Positions 26,560-34,452 of a stretch of 34,599 bases of DNA are shown one piece after another. The notes beneath the pieces are model-generated. The model was not told the origin of the DNA. It saw nothing but the letters and a program-made list of their open reading frames with translations, and did not search any database. Position 1 is the first letter of the stretch. The number at the start of each line of letters is the position of its first letter. The stretch lies in NCBI GenBank assembly GCA_030533005.1, contig JAUNJX010000023.1, forward strand, positions 1-34,599. Direction: 5' to 3'. The position numbers and the translations under genes are program-made. Source of the stretch: Clostridia bacterium. Lineage in GTDB: Bacteria > Bacillota > Clostridia > Christensenellales > CAG-138.

Positions 26560-26579
26560 GCCGATATTTTTGGTATGAT
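26560..26579 (+). promoter_or_regulatory. Promoter elements of the cheW-CZB operon
   Basis: Two overlapping possibilities exist. GCCGATAT (26560-26567) is a near-perfect sigma-28 -10 box, but the -35 at the right distance (TGAT, 26541-26544) is poor. TGGTATGAT (26571-26579) is an extended SigA -10 without a good -35. Which one is used decides whether the operon belongs to the SigD regulon. Confidence 0.4.
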
Positions 26580-26690: not shown

Positions 26691-27533
26691 ATGAAACGCA
26701 ATCTCATTTCGGGCGATACGGCGGATTTCCCCTCGCTCACCTTTCGCGTGGGCGGCCATTTTTGTTCGATCTCGGCACGGCATGTCTCCGGCATCATGCT
26801 CATGCCCGACGTCGTGACCCCTATCCCGCAGGTACCCGCCTACTGTCTTGGCATGGTGGATATACGGGGCTATGTGGTGCCTTTGGTCGATCTGCGCACC
26901 CTTTTCGGCCTGCCCACGCTGGACAGCCAATATACGGATTTTTGCGCCATGATCGATTCCTATAAGGCGGATCATGAAAAGTGGGTCAATACCCTGCGGG
27001 AATGCATCGTGACCAAAGCCCCCTTCCCCCTCTCCGCCGATGCGCACGGCTGCAGGCTGGGCAAATGGTTCGACACCTACGCGCCCGCCAATCAATCCGT
27101 TGCCAGCCAGCTTAAAAAGCTGGAGGAGCCGCACGAAAGATTCCATGAGAGCGCCGCGCTTTATGAAAAATATCTGGCCGATCCCAACGGCGACGTCACG
27201 CTTGCACGCGTCAAGACCTTCTTCGATCGTTCCGCTACCCTCTATAAGCCCGAAATACTCAAGATTTTGGAGGACACCAAGGAGTCCTTCCTGCGGGAAT
27301 ATCAGTCCATCCTCATCATACTGGAGCAGGACGGCGAAACGACGTTGAGCTTCATCGTGGATTCCGTGGACGCCGTAGAGACCATCACGCGCGTGCCGCA
27401 GGCGCAGGAAGGCGGCTTCTGGCAAAACAGCCAGTTCGTCATCGGCATCGGCCGGGGCGAACGCAATACCTCCAACATCCTGATGCTGGACGACGCCGCG
27501 CTGGCGGCGCTGGCAGAGCATATCACACTCTAA
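26691..27533 (+). CDS. CheW-type chemotaxis adaptor with inserted CZB zinc-binding domain
   Basis: A 280-residue protein. Residues about 13-85 are the first half of a CheW domain (LTFRVGGHFCSISA, then VPAYCLGMVDIRGYVVPLVDLRTLFG), and about 203-280 are the second half (LIILEQDGETTLSFIVDSVDAVETI, GIGRGERNTSNILMLD). Between them, about 90-200, lies a helical CZB (chemoreceptor zinc-binding) domain with its 3-His/1-Cys set: H95 in DHEKW, C121 in GCRLGKW, and H148/H152 in PHERFH. CheW couples receptors to the CheA kinase; CZB domains in other proteins bind zinc and sense zinc or oxidants. It is the first gene of a four-gene plus-strand operon that encodes a receptor but no CheA. Confidence 0.9.
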   Translation: MKRNLISGDTADFPSLTFRVGGHFCSISARHVSGIMLMPDVVTPIPQVPAYCLGMVDIRGYVVPLVDLRTLFGLPTLDSQYTDFCAMIDSYKADHEKWVNTLRECIVTKAPFPLSADAHGCRLGKWFDTYAPANQSVASQLKKLEEPHERFHESAALYEKYLADPNGDVTLARVKTFFDRSATLYKPEILKILEDTKESFLREYQSILIILEQDGETTLSFIVDSVDAVETITRVPQAQEGGFWQNSQFVIGIGRGERNTSNILMLDDAALAALAEHITL

Positions 27534-27550: not shown

Positions 27551-29776
27551 ATGGCCAAGAAATATTACGCCAAGAACAAGCGCAAAGCGCCGCCCGCTCC
27601 CCCGCCGGCTGATCTGGTTTTCGCGCTGGACATCGGCACCCGCTCCGTCGTGGGCATTCTGGCACGCCAGGAGGAGGATGCTTTTCACATCCTCGACTAC
27701 GAGCAGATGGAGCATCCCAGCCGCGCCATGACGGACGGGCAGGTAGAGGACATCAAGGCGGTGGGCGCGCTCATAGGCAAGGTCAAGCACCGTTTGGAGG
27801 AACGCAATCGCGTTACGCTAAGCAACGTGGCTGTCGCCGCAGCCGGCCGCGCGCTCAAAACCGTGCGCACGCGTCTGGATCGCGCCGTGCCGGACGAAAG
27901 CGCCATCGACGCGGATTTCGTGCTGGGCATGGAAAGCGAAGCCATTGAGCAGGCGCAGCAATCCATCCAAAACAGCGACGCGCCGCTTTCCATGCGCTTC
28001 TATTTCGTAGGCTACAGCATCGTTCAATACGCGATGGACGGCCACAGCGTCGCCTCCCTCGTCGGCCATACCTGCACCAACGCCGCCGTGGAGCTGATCG
28101 CGGCATTTTTGCCCTACAGCGTCATCGAAAGCCTTTACGCCGCCGTGGAGACCTGCGCGCTTACGGTCACAAGCCTTACGCTGGAGCCCATCGCGGCCAT
28201 GAACCTTCTCATCCCGCCCGAGCTTCGGCTTTTGAATTTGGCGCTGGTGGATATAGGCGCAGGCACCTCGGACGTGGCGGTCTGCCGCGACGGCGCGGTG
28301 TTCGCCTACGATATGGCGACGGTCGCGGGCGATGAGATCACCGAAGCCGTCATCCGCGCGTGCTTAGTCAACTTTGAGACGGCGGAGCGCATCAAGCGCG
28401 CGCTGTGCACGAGCGACGAGAGCGTTTCCTACGACGACGTGCTGGGTCTTGCGTGCACGCGCCCGCGCACGGAGATCCTGTCCGCCATAGACGATTCCAT
28501 CGATTCCCTTGCCAAGATCATTGCCGAGCGCATTCTCGCCTGCAACGGCGATGTGCCCGCCGCCGTGTTCCTCGTGGGCGGCGGCAGCCAGATACCCGGC
28601 CTTGGCAAAAAGCTTTCGGCGCATCTGGGCTTGGACGAATCCAAGATATCGGCGGGCGTTTCCCGCACCCTGCGCGGCGTCAAAACCGAATTTCCCGCCC
28701 TTTCCAGCCCCGAATACATCACCCCCATCGGCATCGGCATGACCTCCATGCACCAGCAATCTTTCCAATTTTGGGGCGTAACAGTGAATGGAAAGCCGTT
28801 AAAGCTACTTATTTCCCGGGAAATGCGCATGATCGACATGCTTCTTATGGCGGGCTTCCAAACCTCGCAGATACTGGGTCGCGCCGGGCGCAGCCTCACC
28901 TATACCCTCAACGGCGAGACCTTTACCCGCAAAGGGGGGCTGCCCGAGCATGCCCGCCTCACGGTCAACGAAGCGGAGGCAAACGTCGATACGCTTGTTT
29001 ATCCCGGCGACGCCATCACCTTTATCCCCGCCGTCCACGGCGAGGATGCGGCGGCAACGCTGCATGAGGTCGCGGGCGTACCGCTGCAAGCCGCGGGTCG
29101 CGTGACCCTGTGCGGCGGCGTCCACCGCATCGGCGTATGGGCGGACGTCAACGGCACGCCGCAGGATAGCGACATTCCCCTGCGGCAAGGCGATGCTGTG
29201 ACCATCCACGCCATTTACACCCTCAAGGAGCTTTGCGACGCGTGCCAGATGGATATGGAGGTTGCGGAGCTGATCGCCGACGGCGTGCCGCTCGCGCCCT
29301 CCACCGTGCTGCGCGACGGCATGGTGATCACGCTGCCCGCCCGGCAAAGCCCCGCCGCGCCCGTTTTACCCGAAGCCTCTGCTTTACCCGTGGCCGCGCC
29401 GGCGCAGGCGCCGGACATTCCCCCCGCGCCTGCCGCAGCCAAGCCGGAGCCTATAACCGAACCAATACCCGAACCCGCGCCCGAACCCGTTTTCATCGCG
29501 CCGCAGCCCGCGCCGGAGCCTGTCGGGCAGGAGCCCGAACCCGCTTCCATCGAGCCGCCACCCAAACCCGTTCTCGCGCTCACGCTCAACGGCGAAACGG
29601 TGGAGCTGCCGCTGGATGGCGCGCACTCCCACTATTATGTAATGAACCTGTTGGGTCGCTGCGGGCTGGATCTCAAAAAGCCGCAGGGCGCCATCCGCAT
29701 CAAGGTGAACGGCAGCGACGCGGCGTTTTCCCAAATGCTGCACCAAAATGACATCGTGGAGATCGGCTGGGCCTGA
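27551..29776 (+). CDS. FtsA-like actin-fold ATPase with C-terminal beta-grasp-like extension
   Basis: A 741-residue protein. Residues about 20-400 are an FtsA/PilM-type actin fold: phosphate-1 loop LDIGTRS (26-32), a 1C-like subdomain (about 88-185), phosphate-2 VDIGAGTSD (233-241), TVAGDEIT (257-264), and an adenosine motif FLVGGGSQIPG near 347-357. Residues about 415-600 contain repeated small beta-rich domains (VTVNGKPLKLLIS, then a DAITFIP-like edge), followed by a Pro/Glu-rich linker and a last domain with LNGETVELPLD ending GWA. It lacks the amphipathic membrane helix at the end of classical FtsA. Divergent FtsA-like proteins of this size are known in Clostridia without a firm role. It starts 17 bases after the cheW-CZB gene. 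Confidence 0.85.
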   Translation: MAKKYYAKNKRKAPPAPPPADLVFALDIGTRSVVGILARQEEDAFHILDYEQMEHPSRAMTDGQVEDIKAVGALIGKVKHRLEERNRVTLSNVAVAAAGRALKTVRTRLDRAVPDESAIDADFVLGMESEAIEQAQQSIQNSDAPLSMRFYFVGYSIVQYAMDGHSVASLVGHTCTNAAVELIAAFLPYSVIESLYAAVETCALTVTSLTLEPIAAMNLLIPPELRLLNLALVDIGAGTSDVAVCRDGAVFAYDMATVAGDEITEAVIRACLVNFETAERIKRALCTSDESVSYDDVLGLACTRPRTEILSAIDDSIDSLAKIIAERILACNGDVPAAVFLVGGGSQIPGLGKKLSAHLGLDESKISAGVSRTLRGVKTEFPALSSPEYITPIGIGMTSMHQQSFQFWGVTVNGKPLKLLISREMRMIDMLLMAGFQTSQILGRAGRSLTYTLNGETFTRKGGLPEHARLTVNEAEANVDTLVYPGDAITFIPAVHGEDAAATLHEVAGVPLQAAGRVTLCGGVHRIGVWADVNGTPQDSDIPLRQGDAVTIHAIYTLKELCDACQMDMEVAELIADGVPLAPSTVLRDGMVITLPARQSPAAPVLPEASALPVAAPAQAPDIPPAPAAAKPEPITEPIPEPAPEPVFIAPQPAPEPVGQEPEPASIEPPPKPVLALTLNGETVELPLDGAHSHYYVMNLLGRCGLDLKKPQGAIRIKVNGSDAAFSQMLHQNDIVEIGWA

Positions 29777-29797: not shown

Positions 29798-30514
29798 ATG
29801 CAAGGCAACGTACTGATCGCGGACGATGATCCCAAGGTTGTCGAAGAACTATCGCTGTATCTTGAAAACAGCGGTATGCGCGTGTTCCCCGCAGAAAACG
29901 GCCTCACGGCGCTTTCTACCCTCCAGCGAAACAGCATCCAGCTCATGCTGTTGGACGTCATGCTGCCGGACATGAGCGGGTATGAGCTGCTCAAGCGCAT
30001 ACGAAGCGAAAGCCCCGTCCCCATCATATTGCTTTCGGCCAAGGGGCAGGACAGCGACAGAATACTGGGGCTGGATCTGGGCGCTGACGATTACATCGTC
30101 AAGCCCTTTAACCCCTTGGAGGTAGCCGCCCGCGCGCGCGCACAGCTTCGCCGGTATCTAACGCTCGCGCCCGTCCCCAAGGAACAGGTGCTCACGGCCG
30201 GAGAGCTGCGGCTCGACCCCGCCTCGCTGACGCTGACGCGGCGCGGCGCGCTCATTCCCGTAACGCTCGCCGAATACAAGATACTCTTTCGGCTCATGCG
30301 CTCCCCCGGCGAGGTCTTTTCCAAGCGCCAGCTGTACGCGTGCATCAACCTGACCGCCGCGGAAAGCGGGCGCAACACCATGGAAAGCGACGAAAACACC
30401 GTGATGGTGCACATCTCCAAGATCAGGGAAAAGATCGAGGACGATCCGCGCGCCCCTCGCTACATCAAGACCGTTCGCAATCAAGGCTACCGCTTTGCAT
30501 ACCGCCCGCGCTAA
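29798..30514 (+). CDS. OmpR-family response regulator
   Basis: A 238-residue two-domain protein. The receiver domain (about 1-120) has the acidic pocket D9-D11, phosphoacceptor D53, S80 and K102 all intact. The C-terminal winged helix-turn-helix (about 135-236) ends with the usual IKTVRNQGYRFAYRP. It is a DNA-binding transcription factor. No histidine kinase gene lies within the window on either side, so its partner is unknown; it lies 21 bases after the FtsA-like gene and 67 before the receptor gene. Confidence 0.93.
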   Translation: MQGNVLIADDDPKVVEELSLYLENSGMRVFPAENGLTALSTLQRNSIQLMLLDVMLPDMSGYELLKRIRSESPVPIILLSAKGQDSDRILGLDLGADDYIVKPFNPLEVAARARAQLRRYLTLAPVPKEQVLTAGELRLDPASLTLTRRGALIPVTLAEYKILFRLMRSPGEVFSKRQLYACINLTAAESGRNTMESDENTVMVHISKIREKIEDDPRAPRYIKTVRNQGYRFAYRPR

Positions 30515-30581: not shown

Positions 30582-32009
30582 ATGAGAAATCTATCCATCC
30601 GCTGGAAGCTGGCGCTAGGCTACATCATCGCTTTTTTGATGTGCCTTGGCATGCTCACCGCCGCATTCGTATCCCTTTCCCGCATCAACGGCTACTTTGA
30701 CGAGGCGGTAAGCATCTCCACCGCGCGCAGCCCGTCGCTTTATCAGGAGCTTGCGCCGCTTTCCGAGGAGGCGCACGCTTCCTACGACAGAGCCACCAAG
30801 CTGGTCGTTATCGAGATCGTTGTACTGGTCGCTGCGGGCGTGCTGTTCGTTCGCATCACGCGTCTTGGGATCGTGCCGCCGCTCATGCAGATCGGCACGG
30901 GCATGAAAGCCCTTGCAAGCGGCGATCTAAGCGCCGAGGTCTCCTATACCAGCAAGGACGAGCTTGGCCAGACCTGCGACTGTATGCGTACGAGTCTCAA
31001 CTCGCTTCGTTCCTACATCGCCAAGATCGACGAGGCCATGCAGGAGCTTTCCGATGGTAATTTCTCCATGGAGCTCAAGAACGAATTCGTGGGCGACTTT
31101 GAAAACATCGGTCACAGCATCGACACGCTGAGCATCAAAATGTCCGACGTGATGCGGGAGATACAAAACGCCGCCGAGCAGGTTTCCTCCGGCGCTTCTC
31201 AGCTCGCCGTGGGCGCGCAGTCGCTCTCCGAGGGCACGACCGAGCAGGCCGCCTCCGTCGAGGAGCTTTCCGCCACCTTGGACGGCATATCGGATCAGGT
31301 CAAGGATACGGCCAAGTTTGCCATGAATTCCGTGATGCTCACCACGAAGGTCGGCGAATCCATCCACGATTGCAACGGGCAGATGAAGGAGCTTATGGCC
31401 GCCATCAAGGATATCGCCACCACCTCTGACGACATCGGCAAGATCGTCAAAACCATTGACGACATCGCGTTCCAAACCAACATACTGGCTCTGAACGCCG
31501 CCGTGGAGGCAGCGCGCGCGGGCGACGCGGGAAAGGGCTTTGCGGTGGTCGCGGACGAGGTGCGAAATCTCGCCCAAAAATCCTCCGAAGCCGCCCAAAG
31601 CACCGCCACCCTCATCGACAAGGCCGTTTCCTCCGCCAACAAGGGTAACGCCCTCGCTTCTATCACGGGCGACGCCTTTGAGGCCGCCGCCAAAAAGGTT
31701 TCCGCCGTCGTGGAGATCGTGACCAAGATCGCCAAGGCCGCCGAAGACCAGTCCACCTCCATCGAGCAGGTCACGCTCGGCGTCAGCCAGATATCCGATG
31801 TTGTGCAGACCAACTCGGCCACCTCCGAGGAAAGCGCGGCCGCAAGCGAAGAACTTCACGGGCAGGCGCAGCTTCTCAACGAGCTGATCGCCCGCTTCCG
31901 TCTGCGCGGGGAAGCAGGCGCCGCCTCGCACGCGGCCATACCCGTTTCCAGCGCCGATTTTGTGGATGGCATCGAATCCTTGCTCCCCGAAAGCGAAATC
32001 TCGATCTGA
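30582..32009 (+). CDS. Methyl-accepting chemotaxis protein with minimal extracytoplasmic domain
   Basis: A 475-residue chemoreceptor. TM1 is at about 9-32 and TM2 at about 73-93, leaving only about 40 residues outside, too few for a normal sensor domain. Residues about 93-145 are a HAMP domain and a second HAMP-like unit ([19 protein letters not shown]) follows at about 150-195. The signalling helix hairpin has the invariant tip [21 protein letters not shown] (about 294-314). There is no C-terminal CheR-binding pentapeptide. Input may come from the membrane, HAMP region or partner proteins such as the CheW-CZB adaptor in the same operon (inference). AAAGGATAAGG precedes the ATG. Confidence 0.95.
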
Positions 32010-32328: not shown

Positions 32329-34452
32329 TTACCGCAGGCGGTATCGATAGAGGGTCTGCGTTCTTACCTCGCAGCTCTCCGTCGGGACGATCATGCTATC
32401 CCCGTAAGCCGACCAATCCGACCAACGGTAGAAATAATAAGTATGCAGCAAATCCCGCGTGCATGCGCGATACTGTGTTTTGTAGTAGGTGTTGGTCACA
32501 AAAAGCACCTCCGATTCCATGGGGACAAACGATGTAGCGTATCGCCGTCCCTGCTCGCCACTCGTGCCCGTGACCGTCTGGTAGCCGCCGCTTATGCCTG
32601 AGAAGCTGTATTGCTGACTCCATCCCACACATTCGTACCCACAGTTTTTCATTTGTGTTTCGTTGCGGAACCACCCCCATGCCAGATTCCCATTATTGTC
32701 GTATATGCGGGCAACAAACGTTTCGAGATCGACTGCGGCCTCTACCGAACGCGTTTCCACCTGAACAGAATCAGACGAAGCAATAGCGGCATCCTGCCAG
32801 CCACCCCAGTCCCCATATGCGCTCCATTCCTCTCCGTCATCATACTTTGTCCAGCCCTCCATGACGCTTTCCTGCGAGGACGCCGTTTCTTTTGTCCTGC
32901 TGCTATATTGCACCTTGGTTTGCGATTCGTAAAGCGGGTCGTTGAGCATGGACGCGTCTGTCGTCCATGTGCCCCAAGTGCCGCCCACGCTTATGGAAAG
33001 CTTCACGTTGCTTCCCTTTGCCGCGATATAATTGGGCGCGGGGTCTTGTGCAAATACGCAGCCCGCCTCTACATCGGAATTCGGCAGCTCTACGGTCGTA
33101 TAAGTAAATCCCTCCGCCGTCAGCGCTCCAATCGCGGCGCTTTCCGTCAATCCGATCAAAGGCGGAACCTTGGATGCTTCCATGGGCAGCGTGGCAACAG
33201 TGCCAACTATATGGCGGCACATGAGGATAATATCGATAAGATTCGTTTTCCCGTCAAGATTTACATCCGTTTTATCCAGTAATAAGCCGTCCGGAACGGA
33301 AAGATTGACATTCTTGCGGCAAAGCAGTACCGTGTCCCGTGTCGTAACCTGCTTATCGCCGTCCAGATCGCCATACACATGGGTGCCGTCATCCCGCCAA
33401 ATGGCGATCATGGTCGTGGAAGCGTTTCTCGTATACACGTCGCCCGCCGCGTAGATACCGTTTTCATCGTTGGCGTCCTGCCAGCCAAGAAAATCATATC
33501 CGCTTTTTGTCGGCGTCTGGCTGTGCAGTGTAAGCGGGCCGTCATGCAGCTTGGCCTGTGCCAAAAAACCACTGCCGGAGCCGCCCGAAAGATCATACTG
33601 CACGGTATAGCCCGATACTGCCTGCCAAACCGCATACAGCGTGGTGGCCGCGTTGGCGGTATAGCTTGCACCTGCTGCATAGTCTGGCAGCGTAGCTGTA
33701 GCGCTAGTCGCCCAGCCTTGGAACATATAGCCGGGGCGCGTGGGCTTCGTGGCGCTTAAGATCAGCGTCGCATCCTGTGTTTTGGTTTGCGCCGCAGGTG
33801 CTCCCGTGCCGCCATTGGCGTTGTAGGTGATGGGGTAGGTGGCGGGAGATGGGGCGGCAGGATAATTCCATGGCATATGTACATAAGTAATTTGCCCACA
33901 TGTGTTTGCATACTCCTGCCAGGTAAAATAAGTGATACTGGTATTGCAATATCCTCTACTCGCATTGTTCCAGTTTGAATGAAGAATCCATATACCCGTT
34001 GCATCAGACTTCAAATATACCATCGCATGTTGCAAGTTCGCATATCCTTCTAAACAAAATATCGTCGCTCCCGTCTTTATTCCAAGATTTGTGAGCGTAG
34101 CTTGCATAGATGCAGCAGTCGTCGTAGAGCCAAGCGTTCCATCACGATAATCCCAATCATAGTAGTACCCCACCTGATTGGCATGATTCTGATCAAACAC
34201 ACCAAATAGCTGAAGAAATGTCCATCTTGCAAAAGCCATACATTCATAATTCCCATTATATTCCTGCATCGCATATGAAGGATATGTATCCATAACTGTT
34301 TGTAACCGGGTAGCAACGACACTGTTGCTCGTAAAATCTGTCGCTTTATAACTTGACAAGTCATTCGTCGCAATCGCTCGTGTCCGTACTGGTACAAGGC
34401 CATTTAACATCATCAATACAAGTATCAACGCCACGCATTTCCTGATCTTCAT
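32329..34452 (-). CDS. Secreted modular protein: cysteine-hydrolase-like domain, InlB-type repeats, dockerin, PASTA
   Basis: A 707-residue exported protein. Signal peptide at about 1-27. Residues about 40-195 resemble a CHAP/NlpC-like cysteine hydrolase, with candidate catalytic C71 (YECMAFARW), H142 (LQHAMVYL) and N160 (LHSNWN). Two Listeria-Bacteroides (InlB B-type) repeats lie at about 206-276 and 283-352, each ending in an AVW/AIW motif. A dockerin-like pair of Ca-binding segments (GDLDGDKQVTTRD, DVNLDGKTNLID) lies at about 361-417. A PASTA domain (VPPLIGLTESAAIGAL) lies at about 429-490. The C-terminus has two Trp/Tyr-rich units with WSAYGD followed by VETRS or VRTQTLYRYR. Murein or peptide cleavage at the cell surface is plausible but unproven. 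The 5' third of the gene is visibly more AT-rich than the rest. The ATG follows GGGGGGAA. Confidence 0.85.
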   Translation of the reverse strand: MKIRKCVALILVLMMLNGLVPVRTRAIATNDLSSYKATDFTSNSVVATRLQTVMDTYPSYAMQEYNGNYECMAFARWTFLQLFGVFDQNHANQVGYYYDWDYRDGTLGSTTTAASMQATLTNLGIKTGATIFCLEGYANLQHAMVYLKSDATGIWILHSNWNNASRGYCNTSITYFTWQEYANTCGQITYVHMPWNYPAAPSPATYPITYNANGGTGAPAAQTKTQDATLILSATKPTRPGYMFQGWATSATATLPDYAAGASYTANAATTLYAVWQAVSGYTVQYDLSGGSGSGFLAQAKLHDGPLTLHSQTPTKSGYDFLGWQDANDENGIYAAGDVYTRNASTTMIAIWRDDGTHVYGDLDGDKQVTTRDTVLLCRKNVNLSVPDGLLLDKTDVNLDGKTNLIDIILMCRHIVGTVATLPMEASKVPPLIGLTESAAIGALTAEGFTYTTVELPNSDVEAGCVFAQDPAPNYIAAKGSNVKLSISVGGTWGTWTTDASMLNDPLYESQTKVQYSSRTKETASSQESVMEGWTKYDDGEEWSAYGDWGGWQDAAIASSDSVQVETRSVEAAVDLETFVARIYDNNGNLAWGWFRNETQMKNCGYECVGWSQQYSFSGISGGYQTVTGTSGEQGRRYATSFVPMESEVLFVTNTYYKTQYRACTRDLLHTYYFYRWSDWSAYGDSMIVPTESCEVRTQTLYRYRLR

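Follow-up and report, generated by a model that had tools for sequence, protein, structure and literature searches.

The window, that is, the whole stretch of 34,599 nucleotides analyzed here, encodes a CheW adaptor protein that also contains a CZB zinc-binding domain. How are the two domains arranged, and is the product an ordinary CheW or a coupling protein with a sensor of its own? The preliminary description of this DNA proposed that the CheW sequence breaks off at around residue 85 and resumes at around residue 203, with the CZB domain inserted inside the CheW fold. The gene and its parts are as follows.

26691..27533, + strand: cheW-CZB gene, 280 aa (open reading frame; Pfam CheW and CZB)
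26691..26945, + strand: N-terminal part of CheW, residues 1-85 (Pfam CheW at 16-79; phmmer to E. coli CheW 20-85)
26946..27299, + strand: CZB insert, residues 86-203 (the excised 118 aa match PF13682, E 4e-14)
27300..27530, + strand: C-terminal part of CheW, residues 204-280 (phmmer 207-258 to E. coli CheW 87-140; splice control)

The domain search suggested there as a check recovered both families. PF01584 (CheW) matched the 280-aa protein with 67.9 bits (E 9.1e-19) in two stretches, the best at residues 16-79. PF13682 (CZB) matched the same protein with 50.8 bits (E 2.3e-13) at residues 95-156, covering positions 1-61 of the 64 in the profile. Both scores exceed the curated Pfam cut-offs (23.5 bits for PF01584 and 29.4 bits for PF13682), and CheW and CZB are the only families above cut-off. 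The CheW-CZB subgroup is defined by both domains in one protein without other domains, and the product shows this composition.

The phmmer comparison with solved structures indicated that collinear CheW halves flank the insert; residues 16-84 correspond to E. coli CheW 20-85, and residues 207-258 to 87-140. In the splice control, in which residues 86-203 were taken out, the CheW match is 75.6 bits in one stretch, over positions 3-134 of 138 in the profile. The excised residues match CZB by themselves. Since the splice control restores a contiguous CheW and the insert alone is a CZB, the CZB domain in ORF 26691-27533 is nested inside a single CheW domain. The proposed interruption and resumption are thus borne out by Pfam, by the phmmer halves, and by the splice control. 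An orthologue in a congeneric genome, 84% identical, shows the same layout, and together with the other aligned relatives it rules out a fusion artefact or a frameshift. Applied to the relative L026, the same splice control produced one uninterrupted CheW match of nearly full length; applied to the relative L044, it produced a match limited to profile positions 3-96. The relatives show a divergent C-terminal half of CheW.

The CZB junction in the window protein corresponds to residues 85-87 of E. coli CheW in the phmmer alignment. Every CheW-CZB recovered is nested at one point, the mobile loop at about residues 82-86 of E. coli CheW. Comparison of the insertion point across homologues, also suggested at the outset, thus gave an identical site in four families of the class. 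Simulations of unbound CheW from E. coli were aligned on a set of low-mobility residues, and this set does not include residues 82-84 (PMC3828127). Because the junction adjoins these residues, the insert lies in or beside a naturally mobile loop, a permissive place for insertion. Among the long CZB frames examined for CheW, no end-fused CheW-CZB was found.

The insert contains four predicted zinc ligands.

26973..26975, + strand: His95, predicted zinc ligand; invariant in 13 proteins, opposite the DgcZ His (3t9o)
27051..27053, + strand: Cys121, predicted zinc ligand and redox-active thiol; invariant in 13, opposite the DgcZ Cys
27132..27134, + strand: His148, predicted zinc ligand; invariant in 13, opposite the DgcZ HxxxH
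27144..27146, + strand: His152, predicted zinc ligand; invariant in 13, opposite the DgcZ HxxxH

The ligand alignment includes the window protein and 12 relatives. The 3His/1Cys set of H95, C121, H148, and H152 is unchanged in all 13, as are K92, W98, F112, G124, W126, and P147. With a profile of the insert, the CZB chain of DgcZ from E. coli is detected (3t9o, E 8.6e-5); in the alignment, the two proteins match at the His, at the Cys, and over the HxxxH motif. The full CZB metal set named in the preliminary description is therefore present. Zinc binding by the window protein is predicted from this conservation. The residue that follows the zinc Cys varies; it is Arg in the window protein, His in the orthologue, Ala in most relatives, and Phe in one. 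This variability agrees with the description of the CheW-CZB subgroup, in which, according to the text of Perkins et al. (2021, PMC8262984) on the subgroup, this residue is poorly conserved or Ala.

The nested protein is sparsely distributed. In the family of the window it was found in 2 of 103 genomes, both from one genus. Of 391 genomes sampled evenly across the class, 45 have a CZB domain, and six, from four families, encode a nested CheW-CZB. The other CZB proteins inspected in this sample were receptors or, in one case, CZB alone. The genus of L026 has the nested form in 9 of 19 genomes, with 10 CZB places in all. The genome G897 has two different nested CheW-CZB genes (L092 and L098). 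A whole-protein search of the genome contigs gave a single match, the orthologue from the same genus. The plasmid search gave partial matches only, none of which reached 80% query coverage. In the profile search of the phylum (398 genomes), plain CheW and CZB receptors dominate, and there is no further nested protein among the matches listed.

In a tree of the CheW halves, built without the insert, a single branch with support of 99/99 sets the 13 nested proteins apart; this value is to be read with caution for long branches. Because the CheW halves alone form one clade, it is likely that one insertion event gave rise to all nested CheW-CZBs, followed by patchy inheritance or transfer. In the tree of the CZB domains, which includes those of clostridial receptors, the nested CZBs formed one group in 25% of bootstrap trees; this low value is explained by the long branch of L044. 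A derivation of the insert from clostridial receptor CZBs is neither favored nor disfavored by this tree.

Is the CheW part still an ordinary CheW? Two positions bear on this question.

26790..26792, + strand: Gly34, at the position of E. coli CheW Glu38; the salt-bridge partner is absent (alignment with 20 plain CheWs)
26865..26867, + strand: Arg59, equivalent of E. coli CheW Arg62, retained (R in 13/13 nested proteins and in 20/20 plain CheWs)

In CheW, Glu38 and Arg62 are reported to be nearly invariant; their salt bridge aligns the receptor and kinase sites, and substitutions of Glu38 weaken receptor binding in E. coli (PMC3828127). Glu38 is highly conserved in CheW, but it is not a formal requirement of PF01584. 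All 13 nested proteins have G, T, A, or S at this position, whereas the 20 plain CheWs, taken from the same genomes and their relatives, have E (17) or Q (3). The equivalents of Gly57 and Arg62 (Gly54 and Arg59 in the window protein) are kept in all 13 nested proteins, and that of Val105 is also retained in the alignment. From Glu38 to Gly57, 11 of the 13 align without a gap; the other two, the window protein and its orthologue, carry one additional residue in this interval. As the 13 nested proteins form one clade, the absence of Glu38 may represent a single loss. By analogy with the E. coli substitutions, this loss could reduce receptor binding. It suggests that the protein is a specialized, modulating adaptor and not an ordinary CheW. 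With the Glu38 equivalent lost, the window protein is probably a CheW by fold and not an ordinary, drop-in CheW in function.

The gene neighborhood gives a possible partner. Flagellar genes are upstream of cheW-CZB on the opposite strand. Downstream, three genes follow in an apparent operon with gaps of 17, 21, and 67 bp.

27551..29776, + strand: FtsA/PilM-like ATPase, 741 aa, the next gene after a 17-bp gap (PF14450, E 2.5e-12; PF11104)
29798..30514, + strand: OmpR-type response regulator, 238 aa (Pfam PF00072 and PF00486)
30582..32009, + strand: MCP, 475 aa, with HAMP and signaling domain (Pfam HAMP and MCPsignal only)

Hydropathy indicates transmembrane segments at residues 4-22 and 74-92 of the MCP with a loop of about 50 aa, and no ligand-binding domain was recognized in it with Pfam. 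The same four-gene order is observed in the other genome of the genus (L086). Two other genera of the family have the FtsA-like gene but no CheW-CZB, regulator, or MCP next to it. In other families, no recognizable chemotaxis genes were observed near CheW-CZB in the stretches inspected. The link between CheW-CZB and an MCP is restricted and not general outside the genus of the window, since among the neighbors inspected there the gene stands alone. The genome of the window (85% complete) contains a plain CheW and CheA on another contig, so CheW-CZB is an additional CheW; there are also further MCP genes. No second CZB protein was found in this 85% complete genome.

Some features of the neighboring genes were also observed. 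The 741-aa ATPase shows weak ThiS/TGS-like (beta-grasp) matches and has a proline-rich C-terminal region. It is 77% identical to the protein in the other genome of the genus and 51-54% identical to those in two other genera, with weak matches only elsewhere in the family. In a related genus, a plain CheW with Gln at the Glu38 position (L111, 8398-8937) lies directly after the FtsA-like gene; the FtsA-like/CheW association thus recurs without CZB. Two further minimal MCPs are encoded in the genome of the window (L083, 904-1743, and L082, 1021-2061). One of them has two transmembrane segments about 25 aa apart, and the other has no transmembrane segment and lies beside cheA.

We lean towards the reading that CheW-CZB is an auxiliary adaptor of the chemoreceptor array, tuned by the zinc or thiol state of its CZB domain. 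It would be a cytosolic protein with a complete CheW fold, save that the mobile loop between the two halves accommodates a four-ligand (3His/1Cys) zinc domain. The CheW fold would dock on receptors, in the genus of the window perhaps on the operon MCP that has no recognized ligand-binding domain. If zinc were lost or Cys121 oxidized, the CZB would loosen. Because both ends of the CZB are tethered in the CheW core, such a change would pass straight into the core and alter kinase coupling. With the Glu38-Arg62 bridge missing, the geometry between receptor and kinase could be set, or left adjustable, by the CZB. Four points favor this tuned adaptor: the regulatory role of CZB domains in other proteins, the invariance of the reactive Cys, the attachment of the insert to the CheW core by both of its ends, and the broken Glu38-Arg62 pair. 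It is plausible, as proposed in the preliminary description, that the sensor would reside in the coupling protein instead of a receptor. We infer incorporation into the array, the direction of the signal, and the physiological signal.

The lost Glu38 and the divergent C-terminal half would also be expected of a specialized linker like FrzB, which would bind receptors and not CheA and shape or localize clusters for the neighboring MCP, with the CZB as an assembly or dimerization module. FrzB of Myxococcus xanthus is CheW-like, lacks the CheA-binding strands, and functions upstream of the receptor (PMC6952110), and an MCP is present in the same operon as CheW-CZB. However, the whole CheW profile is covered once the insert is removed, and the equivalents of Gly57, Arg62, and Val105 are kept. 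Such a linker seems unlikely. We give a similarly low probability to a purely structural zinc, in which the CZB would be a rigid insert that holds the CheW halves together or dimerizes the adaptor without sensing. A structural role would equally keep the four ligands invariant, and the zinc affinity of the DgcZ CZB is extremely high (PMC8262984). On the other hand, known CZBs act in regulation, with the reactive Cys as fourth ligand, and a Cys is kept in 13/13 proteins.

If the CZB does tune the adaptor, which signal would it receive? The CZB chemistry of TlpD and DgcZ responds to Cys oxidation and to zinc (PMC6715182, PMC8262984). A sensor of HOCl (bleach) has been proposed for host-associated CZB proteins, and in TlpD, McpA, and DgcZ, HOCl reacts with the conserved Cys of the CZB. 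Here this role is very improbable, as nothing ties the genus of the window to an HOCl-making host. The CheW-CZB lineages are presumably anaerobic, which would also make HOCl unlikely as the natural signal. Zinc supply or general oxidant stress is a more plausible signal. A more specific form of the tuned adaptor can be formulated for the whole clade. In this form, the nested proteins would be monophyletic gated adaptors in which a CZB anchored by its two ends takes the place of the lost Glu38-Arg62 clamp, and its zinc/Cys state directly sets the receptor-kinase geometry; in the genus of the window, it would provide input to an array on the MCP without a recognized ligand-binding domain. This form is speculative, and we consider it rather doubtful.

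Both the domain pair and the idea of sensing through CheW are already published. CheW-CZB accounts for 1.4% of 10,140 CZB proteins and is most abundant in Clostridia, as given in the text of Perkins et al. (2021, mBio, PMC8262984). The subgroup described there has the same domain pair and the same four ligands as the window protein. Its text on CheW-CZB gives counts and motif statistics, and in that text no nesting, insertion point, or CheW losses are stated. CheW-CZB is also listed among known CheW architectures in the relevant text of Muok et al. (2023, PMC10653840), where CheWS is presented as the first characterized CheW-fused chemotaxis sensor and sensing via CheW is said to be possibly widespread. 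In the text passages of these two papers that treat CheW-CZB, nesting, single origin, and the loss of Glu38 are not stated. What is added here is some new anatomical and evolutionary detail: the nesting, the single insertion site, the single clade, the loss of Glu38 with Arg62 kept, and, for the genus of the window, the apparent operon that ends in the MCP.

The window protein would resemble CheWS of Treponema denticola, in which a sensor domain is carried on an array-anchored coupling protein, giving input without a receptor (PMC10653840). The sensor of CheWS, in contrast, is a CheR-like SAM sensor fused at the C-terminus, and the CZB of the window protein is inserted within the CheW fold. 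With the CZBs of DgcZ and TlpD it shares the 3His/1Cys set, the ligands aligning with those of DgcZ 3t9o, although in those proteins the CZB is terminal and regulates a diguanylate cyclase or a receptor. Like FrzB (PMC6952110), it is a divergent, additional CheW alongside a normal one; FrzB lost the CheA-binding strands, whereas the window protein gained a domain and lost Glu38. If the CZB gates the coupling protein, chemotaxis arrays could receive zinc or redox signals from the cytoplasm through their scaffold, bypassing receptors. Besides CheWS, this would make a second class of sensors carried on CheW, and the insertion loop together with the absent Glu38-Arg62 clamp would offer a clear molecular handle. 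As the domain pair is already known, the gain would be in mechanism and not in a new kind of system.

Additional features were observed in the flanking DNA. A secreted-looking protein of 707 aa with List_Bact repeats, a dockerin type I domain, and a PASTA domain is encoded at 32329-34452 on the minus strand. A candidate sigma-D (flagellar) promoter, GCCGATAT at 26560-26567, was rejected; it is unconserved in the other congeneric genome, and its motif is no more frequent in the window than expected by chance. An extended -10-like element, TTGGTATGAT at 26570-26579 on the plus strand, about 110 bp upstream of cheW-CZB, is conserved in the other congeneric genome.
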